Of a stretch of 38,626 nucleotides of DNA, positions 5,942-38,626 are shown one piece after another (the stretch's first letter is position 1; each line of letters begins with the position of its first letter). A model generated the notes under the pieces. The model made no database searches and was not told where the DNA came from. It saw only the letters and a list, made by a program, of their open reading frames with translations. The stretch is from Desulfobacterales bacterium (lineage in GTDB: Bacteria > Desulfobacterota > Desulfobacteria > Desulfobacterales > C00003060): the NCBI GenBank assembly GCA_023129535.1, contig JAGMBW010000009.1, forward strand, positions 1 through 38,626, read 5' to 3'. The position numbers and the translations under genes were made by a program.

Positions 5942-6607
5942 TTATCTGGCAATCATGGCCCGCATGCGGTCCGAGGCGTTCTGCGCATGATCGGCAATCT
6001 CGCCCACATGCTCTACCAGCGTGATCAGGTGGAATACCACGAGCGCATCTTTGATGGTGTTGAAGATCTTGAATTTCAGCTCCCGCTCCAGAAGATCGGC
6101 CTCTCTTTCGTACTGGCGGATATCCCGCACAAGGCTCTTTATTTTGATCCTTTGTGCCTCCGACCTGCTCCTGAAATATTGGGTGGCAAGGGCTACCAGG
6201 TCCGATAATCTTTCGATGGGCGGTACCACAGCTTTAACCAGGTGGCGGAAATCGGCGGCCACCTCGTCCGGGATGCCACTGGGCCGGAACGATAGCCAGA
6301 ACAGGGCCTCTTCCACTTCGTCCAGAACCTTATCCTCCTCTCTGAGGTATTGAAGAAACTGGAATTTGTCGACCGGCATGAGGATTCCTCTGGGCAAATG
6401 GTTGCGAATGTCGCGCTTGATATCATCGGCCTCACTTTCTATCCGGGCCACCTGGTCGGTCAAAAGGTCAAACTCTTTGCAGTCCTGGCCGATGTAGCAA
6501 ACAGCAGCTTCTCCGAAAAGACGAGCACATTCTTTAGCCTTGTCGGCGTGCCTCTGCAGGTCTTTAAAAGGTGACTTGAAAAATAGCGAGCTAATTACTA
6601 AGCGCAT
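5942..6607 (-). CDS. DUF47 / PhoU-like phosphate transport regulator, copy 1
   Basis: A 221-aa all-helical cytoplasmic protein of the DUF47 (TIGR00153, PhoU-like) family, usually encoded next to PiT phosphate permeases. Family features are the N-terminal FFKSPFKDLQRHADKAKEC, the central ESEADDIKRDIRNHLPRG with acidic metal-binding residues, and the C-terminal HVGEIADHAQNASDRMRAM. AAAGGAGG precedes ATG 6607. The gene follows pit copy 1 by 144 nt, a gap filled with octamer repeats. It differs from copy 2 (9350-10015) at only about eight residues, much less than the accompanying pit genes differ, which points to recent duplication or gene conversion. Confidence 0.92.
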   Translation of the reverse strand: MRLVISSLFFKSPFKDLQRHADKAKECARLFGEAAVCYIGQDCKEFDLLTDQVARIESEADDIKRDIRNHLPRGILMPVDKFQFLQYLREEDKVLDEVEEALFWLSFRPSGIPDEVAADFRHLVKAVVPPIERLSDLVALATQYFRSRSEAQRIKIKSLVRDIRQYEREADLLERELKFKIFNTIKDALVVFHLITLVEHVGEIADHAQNASDRMRAMIAR

Positions 6608-6615
6608 AAAATGTT

Positions 6616-6725
6616 CCTCCTTTAAGTATTTAGAATTTAGGAATTCAGGGATTATTTTCCTTCAATCCCTCAATTCCTTAATTCCTGAATTCCTAAATCC
6701 CTAAATTCCCAAATTCCTAAATTCC
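6616..6725. repeat. octanucleotide (AATTCCTN) tandem array
   Basis: From about 6664 the sequence runs in perfect 8-nt register: AATCCCTC, AATTCCTT, AATTCCTG, AATTCCTA, AATCCCTA, AATTCCCA, AATTCCTA, AATTCCGG. A short complementary stretch (GAATTTAGGAATTC) at about 6630 gives a hairpin. It occupies the spacer between pit and DUF47. The same octamer occurs at 10325-10360, 23850-23894 and 24781-24822. Confidence 0.85.
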
Positions 6726-6751
6726 GGTCTATCCAGGTTACGCGCTTTGGT

Positions 6752-8008
6752 TCATAATAAAAATAGCGTCAGGACCTTGTACAAAACCATGGCCAGAACC
6801 ATCGTGAATGGGAGAGTCACGATCCACGAAAGGCCGATATTCTTGAGAATACGCAGATCGAGCGTACCCATGCCTCGCATGAGCCCTACTCCTACCACAG
6901 CCCCTACCAGGACGTGGGTGGTTGATACTGGCAGGCCGAGACGGGAGCAAATCAGGACAGTAGTGGCCGCCCCGAATGTGGCGCAAAATCCCCGGATCGG
7001 TGTAATCTCCGTAATGTTTTTTCCAATGGTCTCCATGACACGCGCACCAAAGGCAAAAAGGCCGCCGCCAACCGCAATGCCGCCCGCAAAAAGCATCCAG
7101 AAAGGGACTTCTACATGTAAGGCCACAGACTTGGTTTTGATTACGGAAAAGATGGCTGCAAGTGGGCCAATGGCATTGGCCACATCATTGGCCCCGTGGG
7201 CAAAGGCGATATAACAGGCCGTAAGGACCTGAAGCTGGGCAAAGAAACAATCGGCAGGAGAGTATCCCTGAGGATTGGGTCCCAGTTCGCATTTAAGATG
7301 CACCTGCCAGCGCAGCCACTTGCGACCAAACACGGCCGCTAAGGCCGCGCAAGGGATGGCGAGCAAGACAGTAAAGAAAAAGCCGAACTCGAGATGCAGG
7401 TTCTTGAGGCCTTTAAATATGAAGGAAAGGATGAGCACCAACATCACAAAGAAGATCAAGGCTGGCCCATAGTGAAGCGCGGCTGCGTAAGGGTCCTTGG
7501 CGCCCATGACTTTTTTTTCAGTCAAATAGAAAATACTTCCTGCAATCACGGCACCGGCGGCTGGTGAGATGACCCAACTGACAGCGATGGTGATGATCTT
7601 GCCCCAACTTACAGCCCCTCCACCCACACTCATAATCCCAAAGCCCACTACCGCTCCCACAATAGCGTGAGTGGTCGAGACAGGAAGGGCAAAGTGTGTG
7701 GCCAGATGCACCCAGAGGCTGGCTGAGATGAGGGCAGCAAACATGCCAAGCATCAGTTTGTTGGGGTCGTCCATCAGGAGGCATGGGTCGATAATCCCCT
7801 TGCTGATCGTGCTGGTCACGTGCCCCCCTGCAAGTCCGGCTCCTAGTGTATTTGCAATAATAGAGACCAACACTGCTTGCTTTAAGGTCAACGCGCCAGA
7901 GCCGACCGAGGTTCCCATGGCGTTTGCAAGGTCATTGGCGCCAATATTGGCTGCCATGTATAGACCGAGCAATGCGGCAGCCGATAGGACGATGACGTCA
8001 ATGTTCAT
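6752..8008 (-). CDS. PiT family inorganic phosphate permease, copy 1
   Basis: A 418-aa multi-spanning inner-membrane protein of the PiT family, which moves metal-phosphate or phosphate with protons or sodium. The two inverted family repeats are visible: GANDLANAMGTSVGSGALT near residue 24 with LPVSTTHAIVGAVVG near 108, and HGANDVANAIGPLA in the second half with LPVSTTHVLVGAVVG near 355. Length is normal. It is followed by the DUF47 regulator in the same direction. Compared with copy 2 the C-terminal 65 residues are identical, while the N-terminus and the cytoplasmic loop region are clearly diverged, a mosaic pattern. Symbol left empty because pit names differ between species. Confidence 0.93.
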   Translation of the reverse strand: MNIDVIVLSAAALLGLYMAANIGANDLANAMGTSVGSGALTLKQAVLVSIIANTLGAGLAGGHVTSTISKGIIDPCLLMDDPNKLMLGMFAALISASLWVHLATHFALPVSTTHAIVGAVVGFGIMSVGGGAVSWGKIITIAVSWVISPAAGAVIAGSIFYLTEKKVMGAKDPYAAALHYGPALIFFVMLVLILSFIFKGLKNLHLEFGFFFTVLLAIPCAALAAVFGRKWLRWQVHLKCELGPNPQGYSPADCFFAQLQVLTACYIAFAHGANDVANAIGPLAAIFSVIKTKSVALHVEVPFWMLFAGGIAVGGGLFAFGARVMETIGKNITEITPIRGFCATFGAATTVLICSRLGLPVSTTHVLVGAVVGVGLMRGMGTLDLRILKNIGLSWIVTLPFTMVLAMVLYKVLTLFLL

Positions 8009-9349: not shown

Positions 9350-10015
9350 TTATCTGGCAATCATGGCCCGCATGCGGTCCGAGGCGTTCTGCGCATGATC
9401 GGCAATCTCGCCCACATGCTCTACCAGCGTGACCAGGTGGAATACCACGAGCGCATCTTTGATGGTGTTGAAGATCTTGAATTTCAGCTCCCGCTCCAGA
9501 AGATCGGCCTCTCTTTCGTACTGGCGGATATCCCGCACAAGGCTCTTTATTTTGGTCCTTTGTGCCTCCGACCTGCTCCTGAAATATTGGGTGGCAAGGG
9601 CTACCAGGTCCGATAATTTTTCGATAGGCGGTATCACAGCTTTAACCAGGTGGCGGAAATCGGCGGCCACCTCGTCCGGGATGCCTGTGGGCCGGAACGA
9701 TAGCCAGAACAGGGCCTCTTCCACTTCGTCCAGAACCTTATCCTCCTCTCTGAGGTATTGAAGAAACTGGAATTTGTCGACCGGCATAAGGATTCCTCTG
9801 GGCAAATGGTTGCGAATGTCGCGCTTGATATCATCGGCCTCACTTTCTATCCGGGCCACCTGTTCGGTCAAAAGGTCAAACTCTTTGCAGTCCTCGCCGA
9901 TGTAGCAAACAGCAGCTTCTCCGAAAAGACGAGCACATTCTTTGGCCTTGTCGGCGTGCCTCTGCAGGTCTTTAAAAGGTGATTTGAAAAATAGCGAGCT
10001 AATTAATAGGCGCAT
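9350..10015 (-). CDS. DUF47 / PhoU-like phosphate transport regulator, copy 2
   Basis: A 221-aa PhoU-like protein, nearly identical to copy 1. Differences include Leu4 for Val, Glu for Gln in YIGEDCKEF, Thr for Ser in FRPTGIP and Lys for Arg in PIEKLSDL. The same AAAGGAGG ribosome binding site precedes ATG 10015. It is separated from pit copy 2 by 369 nt of repeats, against 144 nt in copy 1. The downstream flank (GTGCAGAATCGAACCGTC) is shared with the relic at 963-1096 but not with copy 1. Expected role is control of or coupling to the phosphate permease. Confidence 0.92.
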   Translation of the reverse strand: MRLLISSLFFKSPFKDLQRHADKAKECARLFGEAAVCYIGEDCKEFDLLTEQVARIESEADDIKRDIRNHLPRGILMPVDKFQFLQYLREEDKVLDEVEEALFWLSFRPTGIPDEVAADFRHLVKAVIPPIEKLSDLVALATQYFRSRSEAQRTKIKSLVRDIRQYEREADLLERELKFKIFNTIKDALVVFHLVTLVEHVGEIADHAQNASDRMRAMIAR

Positions 10016-10384
10016 AAAATGTTCCTCCTTTAAGTATTTGGAATTTAGGAATCCAGGGATTATTTTCCCTCAATTCCTAACCCGGATAAACCGGAACAAA
10101 AACTATCACGAAAACACGTACTGTTCTCAAGGCGCAAGCCGCAAAGTACGAAAACACGAAAGGCTGAATGTTTTTTTATTTCGTGCTTTCCCTGGCCCAG
10201 ACCTGGCTTACAGGCTTAGGAGACTGATTCGAGCACACAGCGCCAGGGCAGGCAATTTTTCGTGCTTTCGTGATTATCTTTTGAAATTTTCTGCCAGAAA
10301 AAACACGGATTTCAGAAGTAAGTGTCTAAATCCCTTAATCCCTCAATCCCTTAATTCCGGTCTATCCAGGTTACCCGCTTTGGT
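10016..10384. repeat. repeat-filled spacer between pit copy 2 and DUF47 copy 2
   Basis: Contains CCTAACCCGGATAAACCGG (also at about 31), an inverted pair ATCACGAAAACACG (about 10108) and CGTGCTTTCGTGAT (about 10261), a CCCTGGCCCAG block like that at 211, and an octamer array AATCCCTT/AATCCCTC/AATTCCGG at 10325-10360. I see no gene here. Relative to copy 1, this spacer has gained about 225 nt, which looks like an inserted hairpin element. Confidence 0.6.
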
Positions 10385-11641
10385 TCATAATAAAAACAGG
10401 GTCAGGACCTTGTACAAAACCATGGCCAGAACCATCGTGAATGGGAGGGTCACGATCCACGAAAGGCCGATATTCTTGAGAATACGCAGATCGAGCGTGC
10501 CCATGCCCCGCATGAGCCCTACTCCTACCACAGCCCCTACCAGGACGTGGGTGGTTGATACCGGCAGGCCGAGGCGGGAGCACATCAGGATAGTAGTGGC
10601 CGCTCCAAATTCTGCACAAAACCCCCGCAGCGGCGTAATCTCCGTAATGTTTTTTCCAATCGTCTCCATGACGCGCGTACCAAACACAAGAAGCCCTCCG
10701 CCCACGGCAATGCCACCCACAAAAAGCATCCAGAATGGGACCTCCACCTGCAAGACCACTGTCTTCGTTTTGACCACGGCAAAGATGGCTGCAAGCGGGC
10801 CAATGGCGTTGGCCACATCATTGGCCCCGTGGGCAAAGGCAACATAACAGGCCGTAAGGACCTGAAGCTGGGCAAAGAGACATTCCACGGGAGAGTATCC
10901 TCTGGAATCGGGTCGTAGTTCGCACTTAACATGCACCTGCCAGCGCACCCACTTGCGGCCAAACACTCCCGCCAGTGCAGCACATGGGGTTACCACCAGG
11001 AGAGTTTGCAAAAAGCCAATCTCGAGATGGAGGTTCTTGAGGCCCTTAAATATGACCGAGAGGATAAGGACCAGGGCAACAACAAAGATCATAGCAGGGG
11101 CGTAGTGAACTGCGGCAGCCTCAGGGTCCTTAGCGGACATGATCTTTTTCTCGGCGAAATAGAAAACCGCTCCTGCAATCATTGCCCCTGCAGCCGGTGA
11201 AATGACCCAACTCACGGCAATGGTGATGATCTTGCCCCAGCTTACAGCCCCTCCACCCACACTGATAATTCCAAAGCCAACCACTGCGCCAACAATGGCG
11301 TGCGTGGTAGATACAGGCAGACCAAAGTACGTTGCCAGATGCACCCAGAGGCTGGCGGAGACGAGGGCAGCAAACATCCCAAGCATCAGTTTGTTGGGCG
11401 TATCCGCGAGGAGGCCCGGGTCGATGATTCCCTTGCTGATCGTGCCGGTCACGTACCCGCCTGCAAGTCCGGCTCCAAGTATATTGGCAATGACCGACAC
11501 CACCACTGCTTGGTTTAGGGTCAACGCCCTGGACCCCACCGAGGTTCCCATGGCATTTGCTAGGTCATTGGCGCCAATATTGGCCGCCATGTACAGACCG
11601 AGCGCTGAGGCAATCGACAAGACAAAGATATCAATGTTCAT
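10385..11641 (-). CDS. PiT family inorganic phosphate permease, copy 2
   Basis: A 418-aa membrane permease with the same two PiT half-repeats as copy 1: GANDLANAMGTSVGSRALT with LPVSTTHAIVGAVVG, and HGANDVANAIGPLA with LPVSTTHVLVGAVVG. The two copies differ most in the loop after VFYFAEKKIMSAKDP and in the segment around residues 195-260, and not at all in the last 65 residues. Both are full length with no stop codons, so both may be active, perhaps with different affinities or regulation. The upstream region carries the MITE at 11706-11917, which may separate this copy from promoter elements kept by copy 1. Confidence 0.93.
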   Translation of the reverse strand: MNIDIFVLSIASALGLYMAANIGANDLANAMGTSVGSRALTLNQAVVVSVIANILGAGLAGGYVTGTISKGIIDPGLLADTPNKLMLGMFAALVSASLWVHLATYFGLPVSTTHAIVGAVVGFGIISVGGGAVSWGKIITIAVSWVISPAAGAMIAGAVFYFAEKKIMSAKDPEAAAVHYAPAMIFVVALVLILSVIFKGLKNLHLEIGFLQTLLVVTPCAALAGVFGRKWVRWQVHVKCELRPDSRGYSPVECLFAQLQVLTACYVAFAHGANDVANAIGPLAAIFAVVKTKTVVLQVEVPFWMLFVGGIAVGGGLLVFGTRVMETIGKNITEITPLRGFCAEFGAATTILMCSRLGLPVSTTHVLVGAVVGVGLMRGMGTLDLRILKNIGLSWIVTLPFTMVLAMVLYKVLTLFLL

Positions 11642-23883: not shown

Positions 23884-23973
23884 TCAATTCCTAACCACCG
23901 TCCCAAACCCCCGCGACACAGGCTTGCCGATCCCGCAGTAATCAGCGATTTCAAAATTGACGGAAAAGGTGCC
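23884..23973 (-). pseudogene. cas6 3'-end relic 1
   Basis: The minus strand reads GTFSVNFEIADYCGIGKPVS then RGFGTVVRN and a stop. The genuine cas6 end is GTFSVNFEIPDYWGIGKSVS, RGFGTVVRD. The matching octamer array (AATCCCTG, AATTCCAT...) lies beside each. The copy is only about 30 codons and lies just downstream of the MNT gene, about 0.9 kb from cas6. Confidence 0.92.
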
Positions 23974-23979
23974 GAAATG

Positions 23980-24303
23980 TCAGATTATCCTCTCGCCAGA
24001 CTCTATTATTTCCTTGATATACGGGTTGGTTTCGTCGAAATCTGATTTTCCAAAAGAATGCGGCTCTATTCGTAAATCCACCTTCCTGGTGAGCTTCATC
24101 AAAAGCACATCCTCGTCAAAACCATCTATCTCATCCTTGTTCCAAAAAACGGCCAAATCAATATCGCTATATTTATGATAGGTGCCTTTGGCATAAGACC
24201 CATATAAATATAAACGCCAGACGGGTATGTTATGGTCTTTCATTACATTTACATACTTTTTTATGAGCAGATAAATTAACTCTTTATCTTTTCTATGAGC
24301 CAT
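23980..24303 (-). CDS. MNT-type minimal nucleotidyltransferase (antitoxin of HEPN pair)
   Basis: A 107-aa protein with the MNT signature YLYGSYAKGTYHKYSDIDLA at residues 32-51 (Gly35-Ser36, Asp47, Asp49), plus the third acidic residue in KVDLRIEP. In characterised HEPN-MNT pairs the MNT protein AMPylates the HEPN RNase and silences it. It overlaps the HEPN gene by 28 nt and follows it. The pair is inserted between cas6 and a cas6 relic, inside the CRISPR locus. Confidence 0.88.
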   Translation of the reverse strand: MAHRKDKELIYLLIKKYVNVMKDHNIPVWRLYLYGSYAKGTYHKYSDIDLAVFWNKDEIDGFDEDVLLMKLTRKVDLRIEPHSFGKSDFDETNPYIKEIIESGERII

Positions 24304-24668
24304 TGCCGTAATTCCTTGATCGCGGTTATATGCTGCCCGGTGAACCCTTTTGTGGCCTTCTTGTGGAACTTGAATTTATAGTCAGGATACCGCGTTCTAA
24401 TATTGAACGCTGTAACCTCAAGCAAATAGTTCTTCTGCTCTTCTGAAAGATCAATGTCTGCTTGCTCAGCCAGTCTCAGCAGATGGTGAATCAGCGGCGG
24501 ATTGTTATCAATATTCCTGACGTAATGAGCTTTTAGAAGTTTTTCAATAACAAGGTGAGCAACAAACAAGGCCCAAACATAGTGGCCTTTATCGTAAAGG
24601 CTCTCCATAGCCTGAAAATCCACTTCTGATGAATCGATCCAATATTTTACAATTTCTTCCTTTGTCAT
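24276..24668 (-). CDS. HEPN-domain protein (putative RNase toxin)
   Basis: A 130-aa all-helical HEPN protein of the COG2250 type: YVWALFVAHLVIEKLLKAHY, then PPLIHHLLRLAEQA and NIRTRYPDYKFKFHKK. The Arg51 to His61/62 spacing is longer than the RX4-6H of active HepT toxins, so catalytic activity is uncertain. It is transcribed with the MNT gene. ATG 24668 is used; the preceding 20 nt contain the end of a cas6 relic. Confidence 0.82.
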   Translation of the reverse strand: MTKEEIVKYWIDSSEVDFQAMESLYDKGHYVWALFVAHLVIEKLLKAHYVRNIDNNPPLIHHLLRLAEQADIDLSEEQKNYLLEVTAFNIRTRYPDYKFKFHKKATKGFTGQHITAIKELRQWLIEKIKS

Positions 24669-29592: not shown

Positions 29593-31581
29593 CTATTTTT
29601 TCTTGAGTATTGTTTTTGTCATGGATTGCCCCAACAACAGATAGTAATTAGTTTGGGTCTGGCTCAGCTCAATGGGGTCTCCTAATTTAACGCCTATTAC
29701 GCCAATTTCATTAATCAAATCCCTGACCTTCTGGCTTTTTTCAGCTTCATAGGCGAGCAGTTTTTCCCGAATCTTAACATAAAGTTCGGGTAAATCTTTT
29801 CCTTTAAGAGTCAGTCTCTTTAGCCATGTGAGCGCGTTGGCTCCTACATTGACGCCCTTGCCCCCTTGAATTTCAAGCAATCTGCCATAAAGCGCTCCCA
29901 ACAAAAAGGCGTATGCCTTTTCCGGTGAATTGATACCGCTTTCCGTTCCAAAATATGGCTTCAGCGATACCATCTCAGGTTCAAAAAAATAATCGTTCAT
30001 TTCCAACACCTCCAAACATCTAAAATAATAAATCCACCAAACCATGTGTCTTATCCAGCCCGCTGCGGTAGGATATGGTCCTTTCTTGCCTTTGCCCTCA
30101 TATAACAGGGACTTGTAACCATCTTTGTTCTCTATAGATTGCAGACACCACCACCGAGCTGTTTCCATTACTTCATCCCAAAAACGCTGAGATGGTATGT
30201 GTGTTTTATGATACACCGCAGTAGCGATTGTTCGTTTAAGCTGAAATAATCTTTTGCTGTTGTTGGCATTCTGAGCCTTTTTCCCGCCAGGTCTGTAAAA
30301 TAGAGGGGATAACGCTTTCAATGAAAGATCCGCCCTTAAATCGAACCTGCCGCTTGATAATGCAATTTCGGGAAAAAGGGGATGCTTCCAGTTTTTGGAA
30401 TTTTCATTGATCTGTGAAAGTTCTCTGAGTCTGGTGGGAGGAACATCGGTTAACACACCTGTCACGTTTTCAAGATTCTGCCCAATATCAGCCCATAAAA
30501 AAGTGAGATTCAGAATTCCTTTTTCATCTTTTAAAATATCAAGCAGGGTTTCTTCATCAGCATCTACGTCCGTGGAAATGTTCCTGATAAATTTATCTAG
30601 TTTTCTTAACAGGTTCTGACGCATACCGGCATTCATAGCGGAAAATGGAATAATGAGCGCGGACTCACCAGCGATTCTTGCAGTAAAAGGTATTCGGTCT
30701 TTCTTGGGGCCAGTTTTTTTCAATACATGGTTTTTGTAAACATAAAGGAGGTCAGCACAGGGTACACAAAGTGCATATCCTTTCCATGCCTGGGACAAAT
30801 CAATACCAGGAAAAGCGCCTTCGCGGTCCATATTGCTTAAATTGATTCCCGCACCTTTTAAGGCATTGGGAAAAATGGAAACATCCGTTGTTCCGCAAAG
30901 TGGGCATGTGCATGCTTTATTCGCATCCACCTTTTGTGTTAGATAACGATCTCCGGCAAGCTTTTCATTTAAAAGATATTCACGATATTCAGAGCGTTGA
31001 CCTGGAAAATTCCCCATTTTATCTTGCACGGCAATCAACGATGTCCCTTTCACTGGCCCAATCTCTCGGACTATACATTCTAAAAGAGATTCATAACCCC
31101 TATCCTTCCAATTTATAATGGTGCCATCCAGCCTTATTGTTGGTAATTCCAGAATACCAAATATTTCCTCGAAATAGGAAGACCACGGTTTCCCCTGTTT
31201 GGCGAGCTCTTTGAAATGTTTCATAGTTGTGTTCAGTATTTTACGAGATGGCCCTCCTCCTTTAGCTTTTGTGTAGCTGCGCTTGATAATAGGACCTATT
31301 TGAGCACTCATGTTGCCGGACGGTTTAACAAACGGCAAATATTGTGATATTTCCGGAGTCATGTCTCTAACAAACAATTCAGCAACATCTTTTTCGTTAG
31401 ACTTTTTAATAACAAAAATTTTTTCGGTTTTTTCTGTATCTTCAACTAAAAATCGAAATAGTTTTTCTGGAGTATTAGCCCTCAAATCTTGATACCAGGT
31501 ATCAAGATTATCCGGTGGATACCCCCCATCCACCTCTTGAAACAGATAATCCAACGCCAAGGTTCGCATGGCACCAAGCAT
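29593..31581 (-). CDS. cas8b: Cas8b/Csh1-like large subunit
   Basis: A 662-aa large Cascade subunit, expected to read the PAM and recruit Cas3. A zinc site is formed by CPLCG (Cys226, Cys229) and CVPC (Cys272, Cys275), as in the Csh1/TM1802 group. The N-terminal DYLFQEVDGGYPPDNLDTWY and the central PFTARIAGESALIIPFSAMN also fit that group. Overall similarity in Cas8 is low, so subtype rests on the neighbours (Csh2-type Cas7, Cas6, Cas4). AAGGAGG lies 8 nt before ATG 31581. It is the first gene of the interference operon, and its promoter region is duplicated upstream of the 294-aa gene. Confidence 0.88.
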   Translation of the reverse strand: MLGAMRTLALDYLFQEVDGGYPPDNLDTWYQDLRANTPEKLFRFLVEDTEKTEKIFVIKKSNEKDVAELFVRDMTPEISQYLPFVKPSGNMSAQIGPIIKRSYTKAKGGGPSRKILNTTMKHFKELAKQGKPWSSYFEEIFGILELPTIRLDGTIINWKDRGYESLLECIVREIGPVKGTSLIAVQDKMGNFPGQRSEYREYLLNEKLAGDRYLTQKVDANKACTCPLCGTTDVSIFPNALKGAGINLSNMDREGAFPGIDLSQAWKGYALCVPCADLLYVYKNHVLKKTGPKKDRIPFTARIAGESALIIPFSAMNAGMRQNLLRKLDKFIRNISTDVDADEETLLDILKDEKGILNLTFLWADIGQNLENVTGVLTDVPPTRLRELSQINENSKNWKHPLFPEIALSSGRFDLRADLSLKALSPLFYRPGGKKAQNANNSKRLFQLKRTIATAVYHKTHIPSQRFWDEVMETARWWCLQSIENKDGYKSLLYEGKGKKGPYPTAAGWIRHMVWWIYYFRCLEVLEMNDYFFEPEMVSLKPYFGTESGINSPEKAYAFLLGALYGRLLEIQGGKGVNVGANALTWLKRLTLKGKDLPELYVKIREKLLAYEAEKSQKVRDLINEIGVIGVKLGDPIELSQTQTNYYLLLGQSMTKTILKKK

Positions 31582-31697: not shown

Positions 31698-31890
31698 TGA
31701 GAATGCATATACTACCATATGCATATGCACTCATATGCAACCGCTTATAAACGGTGTGGTTGTTATTGTGAAGCACCGTCAAACCACCGCCTGAAAATGA
31801 GGCTTTTGGTTTACGAAACCACCATTTCATAAACCAAAATGCACATGTTTTTTTGTATACCACACCACTGCGACAGATCCGGCCCGCCTG
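31698..31890 (-). promoter_or_regulatory. upstream regulatory region of the cas8 operon
   Basis: Holds a perfect inverted repeat ATGCATAT-N6-ATATGCAT at 31703-31724, followed by further ATATGCA sites to 31739, 122 nt before the cas8 start codon. The far end carries CAGATCCGG at about 31874. The same layout occurs at 33146-33318 before the 294-aa gene. ATATGCAT sites in this number suggest binding of a dimeric repressor or activator; the protein is unknown. Confidence 0.65.
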
Positions 31891-32112
31891 ACAAGTCCTG
31901 GCATTGGCGGGCAGGTCACCCTGGGATCATTTCGGAATGTGGATTTCGGATTGCGTTTTCTGCCTTTCTTCCGGGAAGGCAGAAACCCAAAAAAATCCCT
32001 CAAATCCTGCCTGCCCCGCCTGCCCTGTGCAGTGCCTTGCTACTTCACTGGGGTAGGTGGGGACCATCGTACTGGGGTCCGTCCTGTCTAACCCAAAACA
32101 CTTACGACCAAC
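31891..32112. other. spacer with no gene between the cas8 promoter and the cas2 relic
   Basis: GC-rich filler containing a short hairpin TCTGCCTT/AAGGCAGA at about 31968-31984 and repeated CCTGCC-type words. This stretch is absent between the true cas2 stop and the sister promoter region at 33146-33318, so it looks like an insertion. No open frame is credible. Confidence 0.35.
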
Positions 32113-32170
32113 TAAAAGAACTGCTCAAGCATTTCATCGTTTACCAGCTCTTTGTCAAACTTTTGCCCCG
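32113..32170 (-). pseudogene. cas2 3'-end relic
   Basis: In the frame one base off the overlapping gene the minus strand reads GQKFDKELVNDEMLEQFF and then TAG. The real Cas2 ends GQGFDKKLVNDEILQQFF. About 19 codons survive. The relic joins the 3' end of the 294-aa gene directly and supplies, out of frame, its last codons (SLTKSW, stop). Confidence 0.93.
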
Positions 32171-33025
32171 CTCAATTTTCTTCACATCTCTAAGAATCCC
32201 CTCACTGTCCTTCCGATCTATCCAAAAATTGCCAACCAGATCAAAAAAGTTGAGCCATAGGCTGTTTTCCTTTCGATCAAAGATAAAATGATTCTGGCTA
32301 TCATACGTAAAAAAGTAGGTCGGGATGGGCTTTTCGCTGCTCAAGAGAGCGAACAGGTGACCATAAAAGCCGTGATTATATCGCTGGCCACTGCTGCCGG
32401 AGCCGCCTTGTTCATAATAGAAAAATCCGGCCTGATCTTTACCAAAGTAATATTGCTGCCAGGCGTTTCTGCTATCCCAGTGACTGAAAGGACGCGGCAT
32501 TTCGTACCTACGGTGATATTCGTATTCAACTCTCGCCCTGAAAGGATCTTCCTTTTTCCAGTATTCTTCCCATTCGTCTTCATAAAGCTCTTGATATTCT
32601 TCCTTGACCCGTTCGATCGCTATCGGATAAACCTCCAGGTCCAAATCCTTGATGACTTTATCCCTGATATCCCCCTCTTTCACGTCTTTGAATTCCGGAT
32701 CGCCCTTTAGCGCCTCAACCCGTTTATCGATAAGCTTCAGATGTTCCCTGTTCCTGTCCCACCAATATTTTCTGGCCTCTGCTTCCACCAGAGAACATAA
32801 ATGGACCTCCTCTTTCTCCGCGTAACGCTCGTCCTCCCAGAGATCATCTTCAAGGAGTTCCATAAAAACGTATGCCGAGAAAAACTGCATGGTCCTATCA
32901 ATTTTTTCAAATACATCTTCCAGGGACTTGTCTGACATGAAAGAGGATAAATCAAAGTGCCTTATTTCATCGGAGTTCGCCTTTTCTATCACTTCCTTAA
33001 TGATTTCAGGATACTCTGCCCGCAT
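32141..33025 (-). CDS. unknown 294-aa acidic, aromatic-rich protein between cas2 and cas8
   Basis: Not recognised. It is mostly helical and very rich in Glu, Asp, Tyr and Trp (WEDERYAEKEEVHLCSLVEA, YQELYEDEWEEYWKKEDPF), followed by a glycine-serine stretch (YEQGGSGSSGQRYNHGF) and a beta-rich end (PIPTYFFTYDSQNHFIFDRK, WLNFFDLVGNFWIDRK). No membrane segment, nuclease or helicase motif is seen. Its last nine residues come from fusion to a cas2 relic; the two related 3' relics at 36789 and 38374 end naturally as NRIE plus a few residues. It has its own promoter region, homologous to that of cas8. Co-regulation suggests a role in the CRISPR response, but it could equally be an accessory defence gene. 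Confidence 0.75.
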   Translation of the reverse strand: MRAEYPEIIKEVIEKANSDEIRHFDLSSFMSDKSLEDVFEKIDRTMQFFSAYVFMELLEDDLWEDERYAEKEEVHLCSLVEAEARKYWWDRNREHLKLIDKRVEALKGDPEFKDVKEGDIRDKVIKDLDLEVYPIAIERVKEEYQELYEDEWEEYWKKEDPFRARVEYEYHRRYEMPRPFSHWDSRNAWQQYYFGKDQAGFFYYEQGGSGSSGQRYNHGFYGHLFALLSSEKPIPTYFFTYDSQNHFIFDRKENSLWLNFFDLVGNFWIDRKDSEGILRDVKKIERGKSLTKSW

Positions 33026-33145
33026 ATCCGTATGTTTGTTCCTTTTCTGTTTCGTAGTTTTGTCCTACGAAAAGCGCGTTTTTGAAGACTTTCGTAATGA
33101 TGGGCTACGAAGGCGCATTACATGGCAACCATGTTTTAAATGAAA

Positions 33146-33167
33146 ATGCATATCATAGCATATGCAT
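33146..33167 (-). promoter_or_regulatory. operator-like inverted repeat upstream of the 294-aa gene
   Basis: ATGCATAT-CATAGC-ATATGCAT, 8-bp perfect arms with 6-nt centre, 121 nt before the start codon; more ATATGCA copies follow to 33183. It is the counterpart of 31703-31724. The homologous region continues to GATCCGG at about 33311, just before the cas2 stop. There is no gene in 33026-33334 apart from this control region. Confidence 0.65.
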
Positions 33168-33334
33168 ATATGCCCATATGCAAACGCCTACAAAAGGACC
33201 CGTATGTTATCACAAAATGGTGTGAGTCCAGCGGTGAACATGTGACTTTCGGTTGCCAGACGCGCCATTTTGGCAATTGTTCAGCACATTATACGGCTCA
33301 ACTCTGACAGATCCGGTCACGGTTATAAGAATTT

Positions 33335-33631
33335 CTAGAAGAATTGTTGCAGTATCTCGTCGTTGACCAGCTTTTTGTCAAAGCCCTGGCCCAGAACTTT
33401 GACCGCCCTGAAATCTTCCTGGCAGAACGGAAACAGATAGACGCTGTCTGTCTCTTCATCGATCAGGCTCAGGCATGCTTCGGCCAATTCATCAAACCGG
33501 TTCCTTTCGAGTTTCCCGAGAAACACGCTCTTTTGAACGCGGATCAGGCCATACTGTTTGCATGTCTTGGCCACCTTGTTCCGGCGTTTGTCAGCGCTAA
33601 CGTCGTACAGTATCCAAACGAGTACAGACAC
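33335..33631 (-). CDS. cas2: Cas2
   Basis: A 98-aa adaptation protein that forms the Cas1-Cas2 integrase. VLVWILYDVSADKRRNKVAK with the conserved first-strand Asp, KQYGLIRVQKSVFLGKLERN, and SVYLFPFCQEDFRAVKVLGQ are standard for Cas2. GTG 33631 is the start, with GGAG 9 nt upstream. It is separated from cas1 by the four-helix-bundle gene and two octamer arrays. Confidence 0.95.
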   Translation of the reverse strand: MSVLVWILYDVSADKRRNKVAKTCKQYGLIRVQKSVFLGKLERNRFDELAEACLSLIDEETDSVYLFPFCQEDFRAVKVLGQGFDKKLVNDEILQQFF

Positions 33632-33794: not shown

Positions 33795-34175
33795 TCACCT
33801 TATGAGCCATTTATCTGCATCAACGATCATTTTTACGATCTGTGCCATGATTTGCTCATAAGCAGCATCCAGTTCATTGCAAGCTGCGTCTTCCAGATAT
33901 TGACATCTCCTGGCAAATTCGACCCACACCTGAGTTTCACAGGCTTCACTTTCTGCATCACTCAGTTTTGCGATAAACGCTGCCTTATACCGTCTCTTTC
34001 GCCATGCTTCGGCCAAATTCGCGCAAACGGAGCGAGATGAGCGCCTTATTTGGTCGACCATTGAATACTTTTCTTCAGTCGGAAATCGCTTCGTCATATG
34101 AAAAATCTTCATCGCTGCATCCATGCCGTTCTGAAAAACCCGAAGGTCCTTGTAGCTGCTTATCTTTTCTCCCAT
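33795..34175 (-). CDS. four-helix-bundle protein (23S rRNA intervening-sequence protein family)
   Basis: A 126-aa small protein of the free-standing IVP/S23 four-helix-bundle family (TIGR02436-like): SYKDLRVFQNGMDAAMKIFH, TKRFPTEEKYSMVDQIRRSS, SVCANLAEAWRKRRYKAAFI, and a C-terminal helix. Members form oligomers of unknown function and often sit in mobile or variable loci. ATG 34175 is the start; both it and its GGAG lie inside the octamer array. The gene sits between cas1 and cas2 with octamer arrays on both sides, as if inserted. Confidence 0.88.
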   Translation of the reverse strand: MGEKISSYKDLRVFQNGMDAAMKIFHMTKRFPTEEKYSMVDQIRRSSRSVCANLAEAWRKRRYKAAFIAKLSDAESEACETQVWVEFARRCQYLEDAACNELDAAYEQIMAQIVKMIVDADKWLIR

Positions 34176-34295
34176 TCTCCGTTTCCCCCTCTCACCGTTT
34201 CTCCGACTCACCGTCCCTCCGATTCACCGTTCCTCCCTTTCGCCGTCCCTCCGACTCACCGTTTCTCCGACTCACCGTTTCTCCGCTCCCTTTCT
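34168..34295. repeat. octamer array (GGAGAAAC/GGTGAGTC) between cas1 and the four-helix-bundle gene
   Basis: On the minus strand about 15 consecutive 8-nt units: GGAGAAAC, GGTGAGTC, GGAGAAAC, GGTGAGTC, GGAGGGAC, GGCGAAAG and so on to GGAGAATG. It starts at the cas1 stop codon and contains the start signals of the next gene. Slippage would change the spacing or the start. Confidence 0.85.
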
Positions 34296-36129: not shown

Positions 36130-36711
36130 CTAACCCTTTTTCGCACGTTTACCATAGGCAGCACGGCGCTTCTTAATATCAAAACCAATCTTGCGCCCCG
36201 GCTTTTCAGGTGGCTTCATAAGCTGGCGGAGGGCCTCGAATATAGTTTGAATGCTTTCGTCATGGTTTTCAATTTTCCGTTCCAGTTCGCTCAGCTTCAC
36301 TTCGAGCTTTTTGTGCGTAGAAAGCACTTCCCGAAGCTTTACAAATGCCCGCATAATGGCAACGTTCACTTGAATAGCCCGTTTGCTCCTCAGGGTGCTT
36401 GAAAGCATCGCTACCCTTTGCTCAGTAAAGGCATAAGGAAGATACCGGCGCCCACCTCTCCCCTTTGAGATCACAATCTGTGATCTCAAAGAATCGAATT
36501 CGTCCTGGGTAAGCTGAAACATAAAGTCGGAAGGGAATCTCTCCATATTCCGCTTGATGGCTTGAACGAGACTTCGTGTCTCCACCCCATAAAGATCTGC
36601 CAAATCTTTGTCCAACAGAACCTTCTGCCCACGAATGAAAAGAATAATGTTTTCAATCCGCTCAACCGGGATGACCGCATTTTCATCTACCACATCACGC
36701 CTCGTTGGCAA
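36130..36711 (-). CDS. ORF6N-domain protein
   Basis: A 193-aa protein with the ORF6N domain found in phage antirepressors and mobile DNA regulators: IENIILFIRGQKVLLDKDLA, DLYGVETRSLVQAIKRNMER, FPSDFMFQLTQDEFDSLRSQ, YAFTEQRVAMLSSTLRSKRA. A coiled helix and basic tail (KPGRKIGFDIKKRRAAYGKR) follow. A TTG start at 36711 is supported by GAGGG 7 nt upstream; no ATG fits the domain boundary. It probably binds DNA. A nearby phage-like regulator could control the locus, but this is inference. Confidence 0.88.
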   Translation of the reverse strand: MPTRRDVVDENAVIPVERIENIILFIRGQKVLLDKDLADLYGVETRSLVQAIKRNMERFPSDFMFQLTQDEFDSLRSQIVISKGRGGRRYLPYAFTEQRVAMLSSTLRSKRAIQVNVAIMRAFVKLREVLSTHKKLEVKLSELERKIENHDESIQTIFEALRQLMKPPEKPGRKIGFDIKKRRAAYGKRAKKG

Positions 36712-36788: not shown

Positions 36789-36998
36789 CATTCTTTCATC
36801 AAGCTGCCCAGATTCCCACTTCTTGACCCTTATGCACGGATTCTTGAGTCCTCTATCCTGTTCACATCTTTGAGAATCCGCTCGCTTTCTTTCCGGTCTA
36901 TACAAAAATTACCAACCAGATCAAAAAAGTTGAGGCACAGGCTGTTTTCTTTTCGATGAAAGATAAAAAGATAAAATGATTCTGGCTGTCATAGGTAG
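36789..36998 (-). pseudogene. 3' relic 1 of the 294-aa protein gene
   Basis: The minus strand matches the last about 35 codons of the gene at 32141 (NFFDLVGNF, IDRKESERILKDVNRIE) and continues to a natural stop (DSRIRA, TAA) and about 55 nt of shared downstream flank also present at 38374-38412. It contains a 10-nt duplication (AAGATAAAAAG) that breaks the frame, and loses homology just past GATTCTGGC. The 340-nt gap between ORF6N and the Panacea gene is mostly this relic. Confidence 0.88.
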
Positions 36999-37051: not shown

Positions 37052-37870
37052 TCATACCGCCGTCAATCCTGCCGAATCAGAATATGGAATGATCGACCCA
37101 GTGGCCTTTTGCTTCCAGATTATTTCTCGGTGAGCGGCGTCATATGCCATTTGTTCTTGTGGAAAAGTCAGTGCAATCCTGGTGATAATCCTTATTTCTT
37201 CGGGTGTAAGCGGTTCAGCCCTTGACTCGTCAGCATTTTTTATTTCATCAATCAGATCCCGGTAGTTATTGAGCTGAGGGCCATAAGGGAGGGAAGCATA
37301 AGTGGAGCCGGTCATGCTTTTTCCTGTCTCCCTGAAAGCTACCATATCTGCATACCACAGATACTTTGCTGCAAAGAGCATCTTGTCCCTTTTTTTCAGA
37401 ATTTTTTTGCCAAGAACAGACTCAAATTGTCTCAGGACCAGCTTTATCCTCGGTATCGAAAATGTGCGGTTACCCGTATAGTTGTCGCCACCTATCCGGC
37501 CCTGAAGAGCCATGCGAAGGGCCTGGTCCATGGATCTGCTCTGAATGAGCCCCCCTTCCCATCTCTTGATGCTGGCAATACCAACATTCATTCGTCTTGC
37601 AAGGGCTTCCTGGCTTAAGTTCAGCCCCTTTCTGCCTTCACGTATTTCCTTACCTGTCAATAGGTTAACTGCCTTGCGGTAGGCATTTGAAATGGCTCTC
37701 TGGATGGCAGCGGTCTGGCCGACGGTGCCTGCTTGTGTGCCGCAAACCGGGCACACATGATATTCTGCCTGAAAAGCTATATCTACACCACGAAAATTGG
37801 TACTTTTAGACATTTTTTTTATCATCATTTTCCCGTGTCCATTCGGGCAGTTCATCACCTTTTTTCCCAT
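37052..37870 (-). CDS. antitoxin: YgiT-type zinc finger, HTH, Panacea (SocA/DUF4065) domain
   Basis: A 272-aa protein. The N-terminus has a four-cysteine finger (CPNGHG ... HVCPVCGTQAG) as in MqsA/YgiT. Next is an HTH (GLNLSQEALARRMNVGIASI, KRWEGG), then the Panacea domain (MLFAAKYLWYADMVAFRETG, KSMTGSTYASLPYGPQLNNY). Panacea proteins are antitoxins paired with many unrelated toxins. ATG 37870 follows GGAGCGG and lies 1 nt after the toxin stop; extension to 37942 overlaps the toxin and I reject it. Coupled translation fits a toxin-first operon like mqsRA. Confidence 0.9.
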   Translation of the reverse strand: MGKKVMNCPNGHGKMMIKKMSKSTNFRGVDIAFQAEYHVCPVCGTQAGTVGQTAAIQRAISNAYRKAVNLLTGKEIREGRKGLNLSQEALARRMNVGIASIKRWEGGLIQSRSMDQALRMALQGRIGGDNYTGNRTFSIPRIKLVLRQFESVLGKKILKKRDKMLFAAKYLWYADMVAFRETGKSMTGSTYASLPYGPQLNNYRDLIDEIKNADESRAEPLTPEEIRIITRIALTFPQEQMAYDAAHREIIWKQKATGSIIPYSDSAGLTAV

Positions 37871-37871
37871 T

Positions 37872-38240
37872 TTATTCCGCTCCTGTTCCTTGCCGGTCTT
37901 GGTGCAAAGACACGAGCCACATTCGGTCTTCTTTGATGGCAAACTTCAAATAGATCTTGCCGCCCAGCCGCTTACTTTCCCATCTAAAGGCCAAGAGTTC
38001 GGTATCCAGAATGTCGCTCTCATAAGCACGTTGTGGAGGATATTGCCCAGCATACTCACGTGGTGTTATCTCCTTGAGTATATCAGCAAGAACATCTAAT
38101 ACGTCTTTGACAAGGTAGCCCAATTCTAAAGCATCCGCAGCAATACTCGCGGGATTTACCATAGAAATACGGTTCGTTAATACGGCTTTCCTTGCCTTCT
38201 TGATCTTCTTGTTGAGTTCTCTGTAAGACGGCCTGTTCAC
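37872..38240 (-). CDS. MqsR-like toxin
   Basis: A 122-aa protein starting at GTG 38240. The central ASIAADALELGYLVKDVLDV and the end GGKIYLKFAIKEDRMWLVSL have the layout of MqsR mRNA interferases (helix with ADELGL, then GxxYLK and VSFK strands). Similarity is weak, and the N-terminal 30 residues are extra. The neighbouring MqsA/Panacea antitoxin supports the call. Other toxin folds remain possible. Confidence 0.6.
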   Translation of the reverse strand: MNRPSYRELNKKIKKARKAVLTNRISMVNPASIAADALELGYLVKDVLDVLADILKEITPREYAGQYPPQRAYESDILDTELLAFRWESKRLGGKIYLKFAIKEDRMWLVSLHQDRQGTGAE

Positions 38241-38373: not shown

Positions 38374-38566
38374 ATGCATAGATTCATCAAATTGCCCAAG
38401 TTCCCACTTTTTATCCCTTATGTAAAAACCCCTGAACCCTCTATCCTGTTCACACCTTTAAGAATCCCCTCACTGTCCTTCCGATCTATCCAAAAATTGC
38501 CAACCAGATCAAAAAAGTTGAGCCACAGGCTGTTTTCCTTTCGATGAAAGATAAAATGATTCTGGC
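38374..38566 (-). pseudogene. 3' relic 2 of the 294-aa protein gene
   Basis: From 38459 to 38566 it matches the 3' end of the 294-aa gene with only a few mismatches (LVGNFWIDRKDSEGILKGVN, RIEGSGVFT, stop). Homology stops abruptly after GATTCTGGC, near the point where relic 1 stops. The downstream flank to 38374 is shared with relic 1 only. The remaining 60 nt to the window edge are GC-rich and unassigned. Confidence 0.9.
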
Positions 38567-38626
38567 CCGCCCGCCTCGCCTGAGTGCTCGCGACCCGCCT
38601 GCCAACGCCTGAGACAGCATTGAGCT

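Follow-up and report, generated by a model that had tools for sequence, protein, structure and literature searches.

A gene of no known family between cas2 and cas8b of a type I-B CRISPR-Cas operon, flanked by a duplicated cas2 end and control region, as probable accessory cargo

The window analysed here, a single contig of 38,626 nucleotides (38.6 kb) from a 2.9-Mb Desulfobacterales genome assembled in 230 contigs, carries a type I-B CRISPR-Cas operon in which every gene concerned lies on the minus strand. From the cas1 side, cas1 (35318-34296) is followed by a gene of the 23S rRNA intervening-sequence protein (IVP) family (33795-34211), the intact cas2 (33335-33631; PF09827, 1.2e-23; TIGR01573), a control region that we call P1 (33135-33316), and a gene encoding a protein of 294 aa, here named X (32141-33025). 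Behind X come a relic of the cas2 3′ end (reaching to 32112), 229 nt of repeat-like DNA, a second control region, P2 (31692-31882), and cas8b of the TM1802 family (29593-31581; PF09484, 3e-33), the first gene of an interference operon that continues with cas7, cas5, cas3, cas6, a HEPN-MNT pair, a relic of the cas6 3′ end, an AbiEii-like gene and cas4. The IVP-family gene also occupies the cas1-cas2 interval of related CRISPR loci (L018, L030, L042 and L087). Upstream of cas1, an ORF6N gene (36130-36711) with some P2-like DNA in front of it and an antitoxin-type gene (MqsA/HTH/Panacea, 37052-37942) lie beside two minus-strand fragments of the 3′ part of X (36845-36988, 7e-14; 38433-38567, 1e-20), whose 3′ flanks resemble that of a free-standing X in another genome (G005). 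Further away, two closely similar copies of a pair of genes for proteins of 221 and 418 aa (5942-8008 and 9350-11641), whose sequences suggest a permease of the phosphate-transporter type with its partner, stand near one another.

The upstream regions of X and cas8 are homologous, as the original prediction had proposed. The likeness of P1 and P2, both read on the minus strand, extends over about 190 to 207 nt, from a CCGGATC through the TTTAAA/TATAAA past the inverted-repeat array described below, with a local alignment score of 62 against 27 for the best shuffle; the likeness between the two copies is only about 70%. A cas2 end stands before each of them: the intact gene before P1, and an 18-codon relic (32112-32168, minus strand; residues 81-98 plus the stop codon; tblastn 4e-4) before P2. 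Over 48 nt (32112-32159) this relic is 79% identical to the cas2 end, with a score of 46 where the best shuffle reached 28, so that the predicted duplicated unit of cas2 end and promoter region, one end real and the other a relic, was borne out. The 3′ end of X is joined to the relic, and the terminal residues of the protein are an out-of-frame reading of it. The copy made of relic and P2 is split by the repeat-like DNA (31883-32111), which has partial matches elsewhere in the genome, on other contigs. P1 is also homologous to the DNA behind cas2 in G006, and P2 to the DNA behind X in G020 (score 155, shuffle maximum 27). Inside P2 lies a terminator-like hairpin of 16 pairs with a T-rich tail (31804-31839, minus strand), shared by G020; a variant of it is found in G017, beside a cas1 remnant. 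We considered P as a dispersed repeat and discarded this option, since the array and hairpin occur in at most one or two places per genome. A scan for sigma-70 promoters gave no more sites than in shuffled sequences.

Within each control region there is a perfect inverted repeat, ATGCATAT-N6-ATATGCAT, located at 31703-31724, 122 nt before cas8, and at 33146-33167, 121 nt before X, exactly where it had been predicted. Second copies with one mismatch (31719-31740 and 33162-33183) lengthen these repeats into arrays of ATGCATAT half-sites (31703-31740 in P2 and 33146-33183 in P1), which read on the sense strand GCATAT-N6-ATATGCATAT-N6-ATATGCA, followed by a TTTCATATAAA-like stretch. Chance does not account for them: allowing up to 3 mismatches, the window holds 4 matches against 0.17 expected, and none of 100 shuffles reached 4. 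An equal spacing of 121/122 nt inherited by both genes was rejected, because the stretches between array and start codon are not homologous (score 14, shuffle maximum 23).

The distribution of the motif points to the CRISPR loci. In the whole 2.9-Mb genome it is present at P1 and P2 only, and among 281 genomes of the class TGCATAT-N6-ATATGCA was found in five, three of which have it in the cas2-cas8 interval; the other two contain isolated matches, one in a coding region and one in a hairpin. The looser TGCATAT-N4-8-ATATGCA occurs in three of 22 genomes of the genus, namely this one, G020, where it lies upstream of an AAA-ATPase gene behind cas2, and G004, where the array (L121:205-224, G004:C107) precedes a helicase that scores as a type I-D Cas3′ (TIGR03158, 7e-24). 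A diverged copy of the array stands upstream of a second cas6 in G137. By this distribution, nearly confined to CRISPR loci among relatives, the array is a CRISPR-specific cis element of the clade and very likely a control element of CRISPR operons, the simplest reading being a putative operator for a regulator of these operons; CRISPR operons may share this one element across subtypes (I-B here, I-D in G004). No published description of the ATGCATAT array was found.

The X protein has no match of weight in Pfam, NCBIfam, PADLOC or PHROGs, and none of the known Cas or ancillary families in the first three of these collections claims it as a cas product. Its profile gave only chance-level matches against solved structures (best E 0.21), and no relatives appeared in collections of phages, plasmids and viruses. 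Models by AlphaFold2, either of the entire protein with a four-sequence alignment (pLDDT 39) or of the C-terminal domain alone (pLDDT 42), were too low in confidence for a fold search. Homologs or fragments of X are present in 16 of 389 genomes of the class, and distant homologs, with 26-27% identity, in other classes of the phylum. Even these distant proteins keep a set of residues that includes W183-D184, R186, Q190-Q191, G207-G208, S211-S212, R215, Y241-D242 and N245; this conservation suggests that the C-terminal half contains a functional site. The dN/dS values of 0.13-0.19 between X and its two nearest relatives indicate that the gene is under purifying selection.

The original prediction asked whether homologs of X recur beside cas2 or cas8b, and by its own standard for a refutation the result is mixed. 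By a hand count over contigs of differing length, mostly from fragmented assemblies, about 13 of 21 X loci are CRISPR-linked, compared with the roughly 0.5% of a genome that is cas DNA; G544, a contig with cas2 relics and an X fragment only, was counted as linked, and G044, a short contig, as unlinked. The linkage is far above chance but not exclusive. X follows cas2 directly, or occupies the slot from cas2 to cas6 or cas8, in several genera, namely in this genome, G020, G216, G006, G177, G052, G293, G213 and JAFDHL010000111; the position is directly behind cas2 in G020, G216 and G006. In that slot the gene is cut by the contig end in G006, broken in G177, and reduced to fragments in G052, G293 and G213; X is often fragmentary, and it is degraded in many CRISPR loci. 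The full array is found upstream of X only in the window: it is absent in G020, where X begins 47 nt behind cas2, truncated in G006, and missing in G216 and G177. X also sits in toxin-antitoxin or defence neighbourhoods at other loci, several of them with no cas genes nearby. The company of X includes PhdYefM/PIN and a ClC channel (G005), Fic and RhuM (G044), PLD (G034), HigA and AbiEii (G525) and a weak RelE-like match (G604); it occurs as a tandem pair in G094, in G132 it has a type I-C locus at a distance of a few kb, and no defence gene is in view around it in G306. The conserved partner gene that would mark a type II toxin-antitoxin system is absent beside X, whose neighbours vary from locus to locus.

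The junction of X with a cas2 relic is not a peculiarity of the window, since it was seen in six X copies from five genomes and three genera; at the X copies outside CRISPR loci the relic is absent. Moreover, X is only one of several genes enclosed in this way. Altogether we found nine inserts, which may not all be independent, flanked on one side by an intact cas2 or cas6 and on the other by a copy of the 3′ end of the same gene (75-90% identity over 48-146 nt), with X, an AAA ATPase, a nucleotidyltransferase, ORF6N and HEPN-MNT as cargo. Scars of this kind at cas2 also surround a nucleotidyltransferase (L018), ORF6N (L091), and X together with an AAA ATPase (L029), while those at cas6 surround ORF6N in four loci, which may go back to a single old event, and the HEPN-MNT pair in the window (23980-24668; matches to HEPN and NTP_transf_2). 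Behind this last pair, the cas6 relic (23887-23997, minus strand) is 89% identical to the gene end over 90 nt and continues for 29 nt past the stop codon. The relics of cas2 are C-terminal ends without exception, as are those of cas6 save for short internal pieces in L080 and L084 that accompany a C-terminal one. The copy ends at the stop codon in seven of the nine scars; the two in the window extend beyond it, through P after cas2 and for the said 29 nt after cas6. Left out of the count were five more C-terminal relics of cas6 near cas4; the genomes that carry them have no matching intact cas6 immediately upstream, and these relics could derive from a gene since replaced. In G544, which belongs to another class, an AbrB/PIN-like pair lies between two relics of the cas2 3′ end (L119:2138-3121) on a contig with no intact cas2 and with an X fragment further on. 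A search of the open-access literature for cas2-end duplications around cargo returned nothing specific.

We regard it as probable that X is accessory cargo inserted at the 3′ end of cas2, with duplication of the cas2 end and of the control region behind it. From an ancestral order cas1-cas2-P-cas8, DNA carrying X would have been joined at the 3′ end of cas2, leaving cas2 intact, and a copy of its last 18 or so codons plus P would have moved to the far side of X, giving cas2-P1-X-relic-P2-cas8. By this path X would have gained a copy of the control region of the CRISPR operon, with an array probably bound by a regulator of such operons, and would possibly be switched together with cas8 in this genome. 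As no recombinase was seen, we favour homology-assisted joining between related cas loci over the action of a site-specific recombinase. In G020, a second relic retains the junction to a HEAT-repeat gene, and because the same HEAT gene directly follows the intact cas2 in G004, this relic looks like the displaced native cas2 end, the intact one having apparently been brought or rebuilt by the incoming DNA. Some observations sit less easily with this scheme. The likeness of about 70% between P1 and P2 implies that the event is old or that the copies came from diverged lineages, and, with seven copies that stop at the stop codon, a single mechanism may not fit all nine scars. A sister with the same cas8 and an empty site (cas2-P-cas8) was not found among the sampled genomes.

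That X is a CRISPR-linked factor, for which the original prediction singled it out as the best candidate, is the first alternative to be weighed. X would then be a genuine auxiliary, helping for example in adaptation or interference, and the duplicated control region would have it expressed along with cas8. The predominance of CRISPR-linked loci leaves room for such a role, and the position directly behind cas2 in three other genomes, the purifying selection, and the CRISPR-specific array upstream of X in this genome speak for it. Against it stand the copies outside CRISPR loci and the pseudogenes and fragments in CRISPR loci whose cas genes remain; most of the sampled cas1 loci of the class do without X, the array is not its constant companion, and the slot is common to unrelated inserts. 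We consider this reading unlikely, and the ranking of X as best candidate is not supported.

A comparably improbable alternative dispenses with any insertion of X: two diverged CRISPR-Cas loci would have been fused, cas1-cas2-P1-X coming from one lineage and the cas2 end, P2 and cas8 from another, which would leave a similar picture. The modest likeness of the two control regions and of the two cas2 ends fits such a junction, and the interference module has probably been exchanged, because few genomes of the class, and none of the genus mates sampled, have this type of cas8. It is more difficult to reconcile with the finding that G020 and G017, both of which lack this cas8 type, have relic and X fused at almost the same place, and with the like scars around other small cargo at cas2 and cas6. 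Finally, a CreTA arrangement, with silencing of the cargo by a crRNA-like guide, is hardly credible and was rejected: X does lie between cas genes of a type I-B system, but CRISPR-repeat-like sequence in P1, P2 or X does not rise above shuffles, the spacers of the CRISPR array have no convincing match to the window, and CreT toxins are small RNAs (PMC8501985), whereas X is a 294-aa protein.

As inserted cargo, X would most likely be a free-standing defence or addiction protein, given its toxin-antitoxin and defence company, its frequent decay, and the purifying selection where it is intact; that it acts directly in CRISPR immunity is less likely, though possible. The claim that X is regulated together with the interference operon stands for this genome as a plausible one, since P1 retains the full array; to judge from the other loci, co-regulation with cas8 is not a conserved property of the family. 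Rather than housing a new core component of CRISPR, the spot at the 3′ end of cas2 appears to be a place where defence cargo has landed repeatedly.

More tentatively, the 3′ ends of cas2 and cas6 could be preferred landing sites across the class, where a CRISPR-specific operator shared by I-B and I-D systems would wire a regulated second line of defence to the CRISPR operon. If so, each arrival would spare the cas gene, leave its displaced 3′ end as a scar, and be able to put the cargo under that operator. Toxin-antitoxin-like genes are common in CRISPR loci, but the route of their arrival is rarely visible. The scars preserved around several unrelated cargo genes at two cas genes offer a testable route by which accessory genes may be gained with the cas operons unbroken. 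In addition, the ATGCATAT array provides a handle on the putative regulator of CRISPR expression, linking the type I-B operon of this genome with the I-D system of a sister genome, and the X family, unlike anything known and under purifying selection, is small enough for expression and testing.

Compared with known systems, the host operon is an ordinary one of type I-B (cas8b TM1802-cas7-cas5-cas3-cas6-cas4-cas1-cas2), from which the window departs by the duplicated control region with its array. Like other toxin-antitoxin or abortive-infection cargo in CRISPR-Cas loci, the HEPN-MNT, AbiEii, ORF6N, AbrB/PIN and X genes occupy intergenic slots of cas operons; X differs from such cargo, CreTA included, in having no constant partner, no known toxin or antitoxin family and no ectopic CRISPR repeats. 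Integrative elements that target the 3′ ends of genes insert there and rebuild the gene end. The loci studied here share with them an intact host gene and a displaced 3′ end on the far side, but the inserts comprise one to a few genes, with neither an integrase nor a fixed core site; the insert of the window consists of X alone and carries no recombinase. A further parallel is the insertion with long target duplication described for restriction-modification genes, as summarized where PMC3031569 and PMC1643837 cite Nobusato et al. (2000). Against that description, the same targets, the 3′ ends of cas2 and cas6, recur here, most scars restrict the copy to the gene end, and the empty site was not seen. 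What both have in common is a small selfish or defence cargo, no IS, and direct target copies of variable length flanking the insert, in our case the cas2 end and P on both sides of X, and the gene end on both sides of the cargo in eight more scars.
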